This document shows positions 1 to 61,864 of a DNA stretch of 64,000 nucleotides, one piece after another. Origin of the DNA: an uncultured Lachnospiraceae bacterium (GTDB taxonomy: Bacteria > Bacillota > Clostridia > Lachnospirales > Lachnospiraceae); the NCBI GenBank assembly GCA_947629525.1, contig CANREB010000004.1, positions 1 through 64,000 of the forward strand. Direction: 5' to 3'. How positions within the stretch are numbered: the stretch's first letter is position 1; every line of letters begins with the position of its first letter. Both the position numbers and the translations under genes were made by a program. The notes beneath the pieces were generated by a model. The model did not search any database. It was not told the DNA's origin and worked only from the letters and a program-made list of their open reading frames with translations.

Positions 1-228
1 TAATATTTCATCCACTTTATAAAGATGATACACCGTTTCAAAAGTAGTTCCTTCTTTATAATCGCTACCAGAAGGATCTTTTCTGAATTGTAAAGCATAA
101 CCTGTAAAGCGATAATAATTTACTCTTTTCAAAATATTTTTCGCTTTTTCTCTATCCGAAATAACAATTCCGTGAGCCTCTAACTTATCCACCTGTTCAT
201 CGAAGGTCAATGTTTTTTTCAAATCCAT
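1..228 (-). CDS. Abi family (Abi_2, AbiF/AbiD-type) protein, N-terminal part
   Basis: The frame is open for 76 codons from an ATG at 228 to the window edge, so the C-terminal part lies outside. The start has a good Shine-Dalgarno (aaggagagatttt before ATG). The N-terminus carries family hallmarks: a leading K-T-L-T-F-x-E-Q block, a predicted helix-turn with K-A-x-N-I-L, and the conserved VNYYRFTGY segment at about residues 35-43, followed by a basic stretch. Abi_2 proteins are phage-defence (abortive infection) effectors with a HEPN-like RNase fold, and some are controlled by a structured RNA encoded just upstream. Here a compact hairpin RNA sits directly upstream. It is the only gene of the defence cluster that still looks intact in this window, although only its start can be judged. 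Confidence 0.8.
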   Translation of the reverse strand, partial: MDLKKTLTFDEQVDKLEAHGIVISDREKAKNILKRVNYYRFTGYALQFRKDPSGSDYKEGTTFETVYHLYKVDEIL

Positions 229-240
229 AAAATCTCTCCT

Positions 241-316
241 TAATGTAAAAAAGCTGAGCACACGTCTCAGCTTGGTCCCCAATGTCCAAAAGACTTCGGG
301 CAACTCTGTTACATTT
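241..316 (-). ncRNA. Structured leader RNA upstream of the Abi_2 gene (abiF-RNA-like candidate)
   Basis: On the minus strand, a perfect 7-bp closing helix (309-315 with 242-248) encloses two elements. One is a perfect 8-bp hairpin, AAGCUGAG/CUCAGCUU (266-273 with 251-258), with a 7-nt loop and a U run directly after it. The other is an upstream CCC/GGG plus GUC/GAC hairpin around 275-301. It ends about 13 bases before the Abi_2 start codon. The last hairpin plus U run could terminate transcription, so the element may give a separate short RNA with partial readthrough into the gene. I recall that structured RNAs upstream of this Abi class are known (abiF motif). Membership here is inferred from position and structure only. 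Confidence 0.6.
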
Positions 317-345
317 AGTATATTCAAAAATGCAGAAAAATGCAA
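317..345 (-). promoter_or_regulatory. Putative sigma-A promoter of the Abi_2 RNA/gene
   Basis: On the minus strand, a -35 TTGCAT (340-345) and a -10 TATACT (317-322) are separated by 17 bases. The predicted start falls at about 310, which would leave out part of the 7-bp closing helix of the RNA. Either the helix is fortuitous or the real start lies slightly upstream. Confidence 0.4.
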
Positions 346-360
346 TACTTTTTATGATTT

Positions 361-603
361 TTAACAAATTTTCTTTCGCAAATTTAAAGCCTTTTTATTC
401 CCAACCTTATTTACTCTTTCAAACGAAATTGTTGCAACAATGAAATTTTCTCTGAAGGAAAAATCCTCTTTTTCATACATTTCCGTGATCTTGGGCGCTC
501 CCCGTCCGAACTTCCCACTGATATGCGGTTGGAGAAAAATTTCAGATAGTTTTTCATTTACGGGAACAGATTCTCCCAGAAAAAATCCCTTGCATTTTCC
601 TTC
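361..603 (-). pseudogene. C-terminal remnant of an AlbA_2/RecG-like ATP-binding protein
   Basis: An 80-codon open stretch without a usable start lies between stop codons at 604-606 and 361-363. The translation contains FGRGAPKITEMYEKEDF followed by SFRENFIVATISFERV, the characteristic C-terminal end of Schlafen-AlbA_2 (often annotated RecG-like) ATP-binding proteins in gut Firmicutes. A low-complexity NKVGNKK follows, also typical of that tail. The roughly 350-400 residues of the N-terminal and middle domains are absent, so this is a truncated relic. Confidence 0.55.
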
Positions 604-737
604 TTAAATACCTATGTACATCTATACTGTGTAAATATTTTCATATCTCCTTTTTCTTCCGGATCAGACTCCGCAATTATGATCGTAAGCGCATCCAACT
701 TTTCCGATACTCTTTTCATAATCCGTATTGCCTCATT

Positions 738-957
738 ATAAATACGATAATAGGGATACTTACGCTCTCGAATAGAATGATATGGTTCAAAAGATTCTGT
801 CACCGGAAGACGCGCCATAATAGCCGATTCTACTTTATCCAATAAGTCCATTTGCCGCCTTCGGGATTCTTTAGTACCTCAGTAATATAAGTAACTTTTT
901 CATCAAGATCCTCGCAAAAAGCGGCAGATAACGCAATCTGTACTTTTTACTGGGCAT
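738..957 (-). pseudogene. Broken RelE/ParE-family toxin
   Basis: Three frames must be joined to read the toxin. It opens MPSKKYRLRYLPLFAR from the ATG at 957, continues in a second frame as EDLDEKVTYITEVLKNPE, and in a third as LLDKVESAIMARLPV...SFEPYHSIRERKYPYYRIY, ending about 738. This order matches RelE/ParE toxins, which usually end with a short beta-strand segment that is missing here. After 738 the open frame continues to 612 with unrelated residues, so the 3' end has been replaced. The start codon overlaps the end of the antitoxin remnant by 11 bases, the usual arrangement of a toxin-antitoxin operon. Confidence 0.65.
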
Positions 958-1206
958 TGATTTTCCCTCTCGATTTTCCGAAAACTTCCTCATGGCTCAT
1001 CCGCGCGGCATCTTCTTCTGCAAGTTTATCCGCTTTATCCAATGCTGCTTCTACCCTATCTGTCAGTCTCGAATATTCTTCCATACTAAGCACCACCATT
1101 GTGCCATATCCGTTTTTCGTCAATATATGGGTTCACCCGTATTTACAATCTTCTCAATATCTGGAAACTTATTTCTCAAATCGGAAACTGGTCTGATCTG
1201 CAGCAT
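947..1206 (-). pseudogene. Frameshifted Phd/YefM-family antitoxin
   Basis: The ATG at 1206 has a strong Shine-Dalgarno (aaggagtgaag). It opens with LQIRPVSDLRNKFPDIEKIV and NTGEPIY, the DNA-binding Phd/YefM N-terminus, and then hits TGA. Moving one base restores the frame: TKNGYGTMVVLSMEEYSRL and a helical acidic tail ending at TAA 947-949. A single-base deletion in the Y-L-T-K-N codons explains the break. The module would have bound its own promoter and neutralised the toxin encoded next. Confidence 0.7.
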
Positions 1207-1439
1207 ATGCCTTCACTCCTTATCAGAATTTTATCTAAATTATATCATTTCCTTTATTATGCTCTACTATACCGCAAAAGACTACCCGCATAAGCCACAC
1301 CGGTACCATAATTTTCCATGGCGCTGTCTGCGGTATACGTGCAGTCATATCAATATACGAGTTGTCGAGTATTCATACTTGATAAAAATCCATCATCAAT
1401 ACAGACTGTTATTTTTTCAATTATTTATCATAGCATATA
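1207..1439. other. Intergenic stretch with no recognised gene
   Basis: This AT-rich sequence lies between the antitoxin remnant and the AbiH remnant. Short open frames on both strands have no ribosome site and no recognisable motif. A TATAAT hexamer lies shortly upstream of the antitoxin start, without a convincing -35. Confidence 0.3.
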
Positions 1440-2040
1440 TTACATTTTTTCCCCATCTGAATCTTTCCATCTACGACTAATTCTAATCTTGAATCCTAAG
1501 TTTCTCACTTTATTAACACTATCTTGATTATTTTTCCAATCATATCTATTGAAATACCATCTTACCTTATTAGGTTCTATATGCTTACATATTTCTTCCA
1601 GATAAATCATATCAACATTTGAAAACGAAAATCCATAAGAATATATTTTTCTAACTCCTGATATCCTTTCAAAAAAATTGTAATTATCCGAAAGTGCTTT
1701 ACTCGTATTTTTTCTCGAATTTATTTTTAATTTATTGTATGCATCACTGATTCCCAAATAATGAATAAATTCACTAAACTCTCCATCGTTACCATGTCCA
1801 AAATAAATTTGGCTATCTTTTTCTTTTGCCTTCCCATGTATATAGCAAATATTAGATGCTGATATATTATATAATGCCTCAAGCGTTGATGTGTAATTAA
1901 ATGACAAAAATAAACTGTTTTTGAAAGAAGGCTCTTTTTACTTTTTTAAATTCAATTAGCGCCAAATCATTAAATACCCACTCTTGAAACAAATTGGTTA
2001 ATATCCGATATGCTCCAATAATTGATTCAGATAAATCCTA
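1440..2040 (-). pseudogene. AbiH-family protein, N-terminally deleted and frameshifted
   Basis: Two frames together encode the C-terminal half of AbiH, a phage abortive-infection protein. The upstream frame runs from the edge of the preceding gene and includes WVFNDLALIEFKKVKRAFFQK. The downstream frame (TTG at 1907, 155 codons) has the family signatures SFNYTSTLEALY, CYIHGKA, YFGHG and YSYGFSFSNVDMIYLEEI. A one-base shift near 1910 separates them. The N-terminal nucleotide-like region (about 120 residues, normally opening ILVLGNGFD) is absent: the remnant begins directly after the stop codon of the gene at 2041. That abrupt join marks a deletion or recombination junction. Confidence 0.65.
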
Positions 2041-5067: not shown

Positions 5068-5667
5068 TTATGCCTCACAGGCATTCTTTTTTATGTCAGC
5101 ATTATTAAACTGCACTATATTTCGGTTTGCCCCCGCCGTCTCACGTCCCATTGGGATATCATCATAATCCCCACAATGAAGCACGGGAATTGACTTGTCT
5201 TCCTGTGAAAGAGTTGCCTGTACATCTATAACGCGCTGATTGATACTGCCTTTCCATAAAAGATTAGTATCCTGTTTTTCCTGCTGAAACTCCCCGTCAA
5301 CAAGTACATCCACATATTTGATCAACGGATAGTGCATAGCTGTTTCCCATTTGTCGCCCGTATAAAGCCAGATATTTTTATTCGGATATTTCTCCTTTAT
5401 CTCTGCCATCAGCGCCTTTACTCCTTCGCGATTGACGCCATGAAGCGGGTCACCGCCCGAAAAGGTTATTCCTTCTATATATGGTTTGTCCAACTGTTCA
5501 AAAATCTCTGCCTTTGCATTTTCGTCAAATTCCAGACCGCCATCAGGATCCCAAGTCATAGGATTTTGACATCCTTTGCAGCAATGTGAACATCCCGCGA
5601 CCCATAAAACAACACGCAGCCCGTCACCGTTTAACATGTCATCTTTAGTTATATTATGGTATCTCAT
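5068..5667 (-). CDS. nrdG: Anaerobic ribonucleotide reductase activating protein
   Basis: A 199-residue radical-SAM enzyme that generates the glycyl radical on NrdD, using S-adenosylmethionine and a [4Fe-4S] cluster. The cluster motif is CSHCCKGCQN (C-x3-C-x2-C) at about residues 26-35, followed by the glycine-rich TFSGGDPL SAM-binding segment near residue 70. It begins MRYHNITKDDMLNGDGLRVV, typical of NrdG. The C-terminus is somewhat longer than the usual 155-180 residues. It lies 41 bases downstream of nrdD in the same operon and ends at the strong terminator at 5023-5057. Confidence 0.95.
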   Translation of the reverse strand: MRYHNITKDDMLNGDGLRVVLWVAGCSHCCKGCQNPMTWDPDGGLEFDENAKAEIFEQLDKPYIEGITFSGGDPLHGVNREGVKALMAEIKEKYPNKNIWLYTGDKWETAMHYPLIKYVDVLVDGEFQQEKQDTNLLWKGSINQRVIDVQATLSQEDKSIPVLHCGDYDDIPMGRETAGANRNIVQFNNADIKKNACEA

Positions 5668-61742: not shown

Positions 61743-61785
61743 AAAAAACCGTCCGGGCGCACCTTTACAAATGCAGCCCAGACGG
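61743..61785 (-). terminator. Terminator expression platform of the ZTP riboswitch
   Basis: Minus strand stem CCGTCTGGGC/GCCCGGACGG (61776-61785 with 61749-61758), 17-base loop, then a U run (61743-61748). The 5' arm is the conserved 3' half of the aptamer, so ligand binding and termination are mutually exclusive: ZTP turns expression on. Confidence 0.85.
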
Positions 61786-61856
61786 TCGGCTTTTCTCTAA
61801 AATACACTTCCTGTAGGTAATCCTACACGTTTTTCACGTTTCCGTCAGTCGTGTAC
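61776..61856 (-). promoter_or_regulatory. ZTP (pfl) riboswitch
   Basis: The leader of purO. The 3' hallmark GCCGACCGTCTGGGC (61776-61790) matches the conserved ZTP-riboswitch subdomain. The 5' subdomain around 61832-61856 contains ACACGACTGACGGAAACGTG, the G-A-C-x-G-x-C-G-G-A element. The linker between them has its own short hairpin (GTAGG/CCTAC). ZTP/ZMP, an alarmone of low folate, binds such RNAs and activates purine and folate genes, as the genes here fit. Confidence 0.85.
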
Positions 61857-61864
61857 CTTTCTTT

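Follow-up and report, generated by a model that had tools for sequence, protein, structure and literature searches.

In type III toxin-antitoxin systems such as ToxIN and AbiQ, the gene of an RNase toxin is preceded by an RNA antitoxin, and a terminator between the two has an attenuating role. ToxN is a non-HEPN protein, whereas ToxI consists of tandem repeats that form a pseudoknot RNA. In the AbiD/AbiF (Abi_2) group, whose toxins are HEPN proteins, the antitoxin role of an RNA has been demonstrated for RCd22 of C. difficile. RCd22 accumulates by termination, binds AbiF and neutralises it both in cis and in trans, and its deletion raises abiF expression 17-fold (PMC12373285). It contains two RF03085 motifs, each with a 6-bp outer stem, a 3-bp inner stem and a 6-nt 3′ bulge. 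The PbAbiF-AbiFr system of a Prevotellaceae bacterium is represented by PDB 8vz6, and the same report describes PbAbiF as inactivated by replacing R210/H215 (PMC12373285).

The lactococcal abiD1 gene provides a further point of comparison. AbiD1 of Lactococcus lactis pIL105 belongs to the same AbiD/AbiF group, and the available text of the report on it describes a promoter, a terminated transcript of about 50 nt upstream of the toxin gene, and a rare read-through mRNA (PMC2661086). It differs from the locus studied here in having a stem-loop that masks the ribosome-binding site and in being activated at translation by phage Orf1; in that same text, no antitoxin role is described for the 50-nt RNA (PMC2661086).

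Here we analyse a module at one end of a contig from an uncultured Lachnospiraceae bacterium. The window is the whole 64,000-nt stretch of DNA that was analysed, starting at the very first base of contig C4 in a 3.08 Mb genome of 110 contigs. As in ToxIN/AbiQ, the order is RNA, terminator, toxin: a conserved structured RNA stands directly before the toxin gene, with the terminator between them. In contrast to ToxIN/AbiQ, the toxin is of the HEPN type and the RNA is a single unit without repeats. The layout of sigma-A promoter, structured RNA, terminator, ribosome-binding site and toxin, with co-transcription by read-through, is shared with RCd22-abiF.

Layout of the locus and its toxin gene

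The features of the module, in window coordinates and with the evidence for each in brackets, are as follows.

317-345, minus strand: sigma-A-type promoter, -35 TTGCAT at 345-340, 17-nt spacer, -10 TATACT at 322-317 (sequence; spacing in relatives)
247-310, minus strand: predicted RNA antitoxin transcript of about 60-64 nt, with 5′ AACAGA, a bulged helix plus inner hairpin, and a terminator (model R1, covariation)
275-304, minus strand: core helix, GUU 304-302, bulged G301 and CCCGA 300-296 pairing with UUGGG 282-278 and GAC 277-275 (covariation)
294-292 with 286-284, minus strand: inner hairpin GUC/GAC, inside the core helix (covariation)
247-273, minus strand: intrinsic terminator, 8-bp stem AAGCUGAG 273-266 / CUCAGCUU 258-251, plus six U at 252-247 (sequence, covariation)
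234-241, minus strand: Shine-Dalgarno sequence AAGGAGAG (sequence; retained in close relatives)
1-228, minus strand: abiF/abiD-type toxin gene, first 76 codons (Pfam Abi_2, PADLOC AbiD, identity to relatives)

The RNA thus lies between the promoter and the toxin ATG at 228-226. An earlier note, made from the letters of this DNA, had placed a good promoter before the leader and a perfect 8-bp hairpin with a U run within it, and both were borne out. In 20 of 22 leaders, exactly 6 nt separate the end of the best -10 hexamer from AACAG, and the spacer to the -35 in these is nearly always 16-17 nt. From this spacing the RNA is predicted to start at 310, and its 3′ end would fall at about 247, within the U run.

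The reading frame of the toxin gene leaves the contig after 76 codons. That an Abi_2 N-terminus begins here, as the earlier note had claimed, is confirmed by the open frame from the ATG and by matches of the fragment to Pfam Abi_2 (6.4e-10; 40.1 bits, the cut-off being 25.6) and PADLOC AbiD (1.3e-24), which place it among the AbiD/AbiF (Abi_2) HEPN proteins. Calling the gene intact would go too far, as only 76 aa are present before the contig ends. The PADLOC label itself was considered as a sign of a non-AbiF protein and rejected; the C. difficile AbiF is labelled likewise, and so the label is only a name.

Proteins of the closest relatives are 82-89% identical across the window's 76 aa, and those of further relatives 45-77%. 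Together these relatives come from Lachnospiraceae, Faecalibacterium and other Firmicutes, and from one viral contig. One full-length relative (L005) matches Pfam Abi_2 at 162.6 bits and is about 36% identical over its full length to the phiC2 protein of the RCd22-AbiF system (phi027/phiC2). Intact relatives have a length of about 296 aa and, near residue 206, the sequence RNKCAH (or RNKCCH/RNKCSH); this HEPN motif (R-N-x-C-x-H) was read in intact clade relatives, the window's 76 residues ending before that point. When compared with the solved PbAbiF chain (8vz6), L005 aligns across the whole protein (E 5e-22), with its R..H in register with the catalytic R210/H215. PbAbiF is distant from the window clade, and on this alignment we regard the fold of the full-length relatives as settled to be that of 8vz6.

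Neighbouring sequence includes the C-terminal part of an AbiH protein (1440-1907, minus strand; Pfam PF14253, 1e-31), the N-terminal part of which is missing. At 600-1212 (minus strand), broken short frames (1212-1123 and 1132-950, in different frames) resemble, by reading, a Phd/YefM-type antitoxin. Next comes a small ORF (612-851) that has no match in Pfam. This stretch is probably a decayed type II toxin-antitoxin pair. The AbiH remnant and the decayed antitoxin-like frames that separate it from the toxin gene amount to a worn defence island which, as context only, would fit a role in abortive infection. Far from the module, a ZMP/ZTP riboswitch lies at 61769-61862 (minus strand; 55.3 bits, above the Rfam cut-off).

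Such surroundings raise the question of whether the module is itself a worn relic, with its RNA present and its toxin gene broken beyond the contig end. The decayed AbiH fragment and split antitoxin-like frames point that way, as does the finding that the remainder of the gene is on no other contig of this genome, and most decidable RNA copies elsewhere in the family have a broken or missing toxin (see below). The 76 codons, on the other hand, contain neither stop nor frameshift and retain their high identity to the closest relatives. We consider a relic a possibility of some weight, if not the probable state of the locus. This genome has just one other Abi_2 stretch, which is on contig C70; it was examined as the other half of the gene and rejected: at 34% identity to L005, it is a separate, broken second copy of another lineage (L001 1396-1695, minus strand).

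A conserved and covarying leader RNA

The leader RNA is real, conserved and covarying. Genes of the relatives are preceded by one shared element, in which AACAGAGUUGCCCGA, an inner hairpin, UUGGGGACCAAGCUGAG, a loop and CUCAGCUUUUUUAC follow one another, and leaders folded one by one nearly all adopt the same plan of free AACAGA, core helix and terminator, with an inner hairpin of varying size. Across 21 distinct leaders, 94.5% of cells are paired and 11 of 17 pairs show changes on both sides. Cells with both-side changes number 27, against a shuffled mean of 6.8, and none of 500 shuffles reaches the observed value on any measure; these shuffles ignore relatedness, and a control that keeps it, in which partners are slid by 1-3 columns, agrees, pairing there falling to 33-59%. 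The signal is present both in the core helix with its inner hairpin (7 of 11 pairs with both-side changes; 96.3% of cells paired) and in the terminator (4 of 6 counted pairs; 91.3%). In four rows, for example, U-A at pair 8-37 gives way to C-G; L052 has C-G in place of G-C at pair 7-38, and L008 has A-U in place of C-G at pair 13-33. Compensatory changes in homologous leaders, which had been proposed as a check, are therefore abundant.

It is hardly credible that the leader is a plain 5′ UTR whose terminator arose by chance and which contains no conserved RNA. On its own, the fold of the window sequence stands out only moderately from shuffled sequences (z = -2.6, matched by 3 of 200 shuffles), which taken with the missing RF03085 match described below could be read in this way. 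However, the comparative evidence is far stronger than this single fold: the strong covariation, the collapse of pairing when partners are slid and the constant promoter distance refute such a reading.

Comparison also redraws two elements of the structure first proposed. The further short hairpin exists, in that there is a second hairpin before the terminator, but it is really the core of the RNA, a bulged helix enclosing GUC/GAC. A 7-bp closing helix (AAUGUAA 315-309 / UUACAUU 248-242) can be found in the letters, but it is not conserved and lies mostly outside the predicted transcript. Five of the seven bases of its 5′ arm precede the predicted start at 310, and most of its 3′ arm is beyond the terminator; apart from two A-U pairs that are constant, its pairs form in just 8-13 of 19 leaders. 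Because the RNA is predicted to run from 310 to about 247, this helix would bridge the promoter and the sequence past the terminator, and it was dropped as a part of the RNA.

Relation to the Rfam abiF family

The Rfam abiF covariance model, RF03085, has no match in the leader (225-350), even at E 10, nor across this genome. The model does score 37.6 bits on phiC2, the carrier of the C. difficile system, and also finds further abiF loci. Other Rfam matches of the leader (snR40, SpF10, S15) were at chance level and were rejected. The combination that the earlier note would have held against its reading was no model match and no compensatory changes; only the first half of this was found.

This negative result corresponds to a difference in shape. 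In place of the outer stem, inner stem and unpaired 3′ bulge of RF03085, the supported structure of the window RNA is GUU-g-CCCGA/UUGGG-GAC, in which one G is bulged and other bases are left unpaired singly. Compared with RCd22, this structure has a single helix with a bulged G, lacks the 6-nt 3′ bulge and includes a separate terminator hairpin. As the RNA has no RF03085 match, RNA-protein contacts described in the literature may not apply to it.

A covariance model built in this analysis from the window-type RNA, R1, matches the window at 245-310 with 86.5 bits. It gives 50-87 bits on window-type RNAs, and finds neither phiC2 nor RF03085-type loci. A tree built from 46 full-length proteins places the 18 that have an R1-type RNA together on one side of a branch (SH-aLRT 99; 0 of 500 shuffles); this is a quick tree, and its relatives were gathered by similarity to the window protein, such that some clustering is expected. 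The exact match between RNA type and protein clade is informative nonetheless. The best reading is that the RNA represents a second abiF-type shape, probably part of a known defence system and missed by the known family model. The main text of a survey of structured RNAs in the human microbiome mentions no Abi gene, and its supplementary lists may still include this RNA (PMC8040213).

A third leader type stands before more distant Abi_2 genes (L016, L018, L022, L025, L030 and L032; for example CAGTGATCGTGTTGCGGAAACTTGCGAAGCCCGTAACCGGGGGAGAACCTGCGGG). It matches neither RF03085 nor R1, and is possibly another undescribed class of AbiF RNA.

Toxin loss and the proposed module

R1 was run on 299, and then on 397 largely overlapping, genomes of the family, taking matches of at least 50 bits as strong. 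There are 20 strong places. Six precede an intact toxin (L080, L082, L083, L091, L093, L095), and two, the window and L087, run into a contig end. In the other 12, or 12 of the 18 decidable, the toxin gene is deleted, truncated or start-less (L084, L085, L086, L088, L089, L090, L092, L094, L096, L098, L115, L116), and at some of these loci the RNA and its promoter have hardly altered (L085, 84.9 bits). No full-length clade toxin was seen without the RNA, all 18 having it. This one-way loss fits what an antitoxin predicts and is a toxin-antitoxin signature, not proof, as recent relics would look alike and R1 finds only RNAs that are still conserved. Loci that decayed recently could also keep the RNA by chance and not by selection. 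We speculate that the toxin-less RNAs are kept as stand-alone antitoxins against incoming prophages or islands with a matching AbiF, and that RNAs of the R1 type inhibit AbiF through contacts unlike those of the RF03085 type, although we think this rather improbable.

In a search of the phylum, the match in L100 (36.7 bits) was retained, since an intact Abi_2 gene comes after it, and weak matches of 23-32 bits (L101-L111, of which L101-L107 have no following Abi_2 gene) were left out as chance or distant remains. An IMG/VR contig (L034/L114) that appears prophage-like carries an R1-type RNA (5142-5177, minus strand, in L114) with an intact abiF; judged from translations, a terminase-like gene lies on one side of the module and repressor-like genes on the other. 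This setting, too, would fit an abortive-infection role as context only. The module of L038, an intact relative from Butyribacter, lies, again from translations, among integrase pieces.

Taken together, the locus very probably represents a toxin-antitoxin and abortive-infection module of the AbiF type (AbiD/AbiF group), in which the leader would serve as both a type III-like RNA antitoxin and an attenuator. The grounds for this are the structure and conservation of the RNA, the gene family, the catalytic motif of the relatives, the promoter and terminator layout, and the one-way loss of the toxin. The RNA most likely acts like the abiF RNA antitoxins. Because RCd22-abiF and abiD1 have the same layout, we infer a mechanism along the following lines. 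A single promoter would yield mostly the short structured RNA, stopping at the terminator, which would permit only slight read-through into the toxin gene and so leave the RNA in excess. The RNA would bind the AbiF dimer and block its HEPN RNase. Should the RNA supply be lost or read-through raised, presumably in phage infection, the RNase would be freed to cleave RNA, and growth would stop.

The leader might instead be a cis-acting attenuator only, a terminator with a sensing element that keeps abiF low and answers a signal, with no antitoxin action in trans. The strong, conserved terminator directly before the ribosome-binding site would suit this reading, as would abiD1, with its activation by Orf1 and, in the available text, no described antitoxin role for its RNA (PMC2661086). 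Termination, however, has no need of a conserved core helix, a bulge or an invariant AACAG, and RNA copies persist without a toxin gene, where attenuation has no target. Further, RCd22, with the same layout, works in trans (PMC12373285). We therefore judge a purely cis-acting leader unlikely, and favour an RNA antitoxin that also attenuates.

It has been proposed that Cas13 with its guide RNA descends from AbiF-RNA pairs (cited in PMC12373285 and PMC12737573). Rfam has one abiF RNA shape; a second, strongly covarying shape, tied to one AbiF clade, would make the co-evolution of RNA and toxin testable through exchange of cognate and non-cognate pairs. At about 60 nt, the predicted RNA is compact and would be suited to structural work. 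The frequent survival of the RNA after loss of the toxin offers genomic support for an antitoxin role, and the new shape allows such systems to be recognised in those gut Firmicutes in which RF03085 overlooks them.
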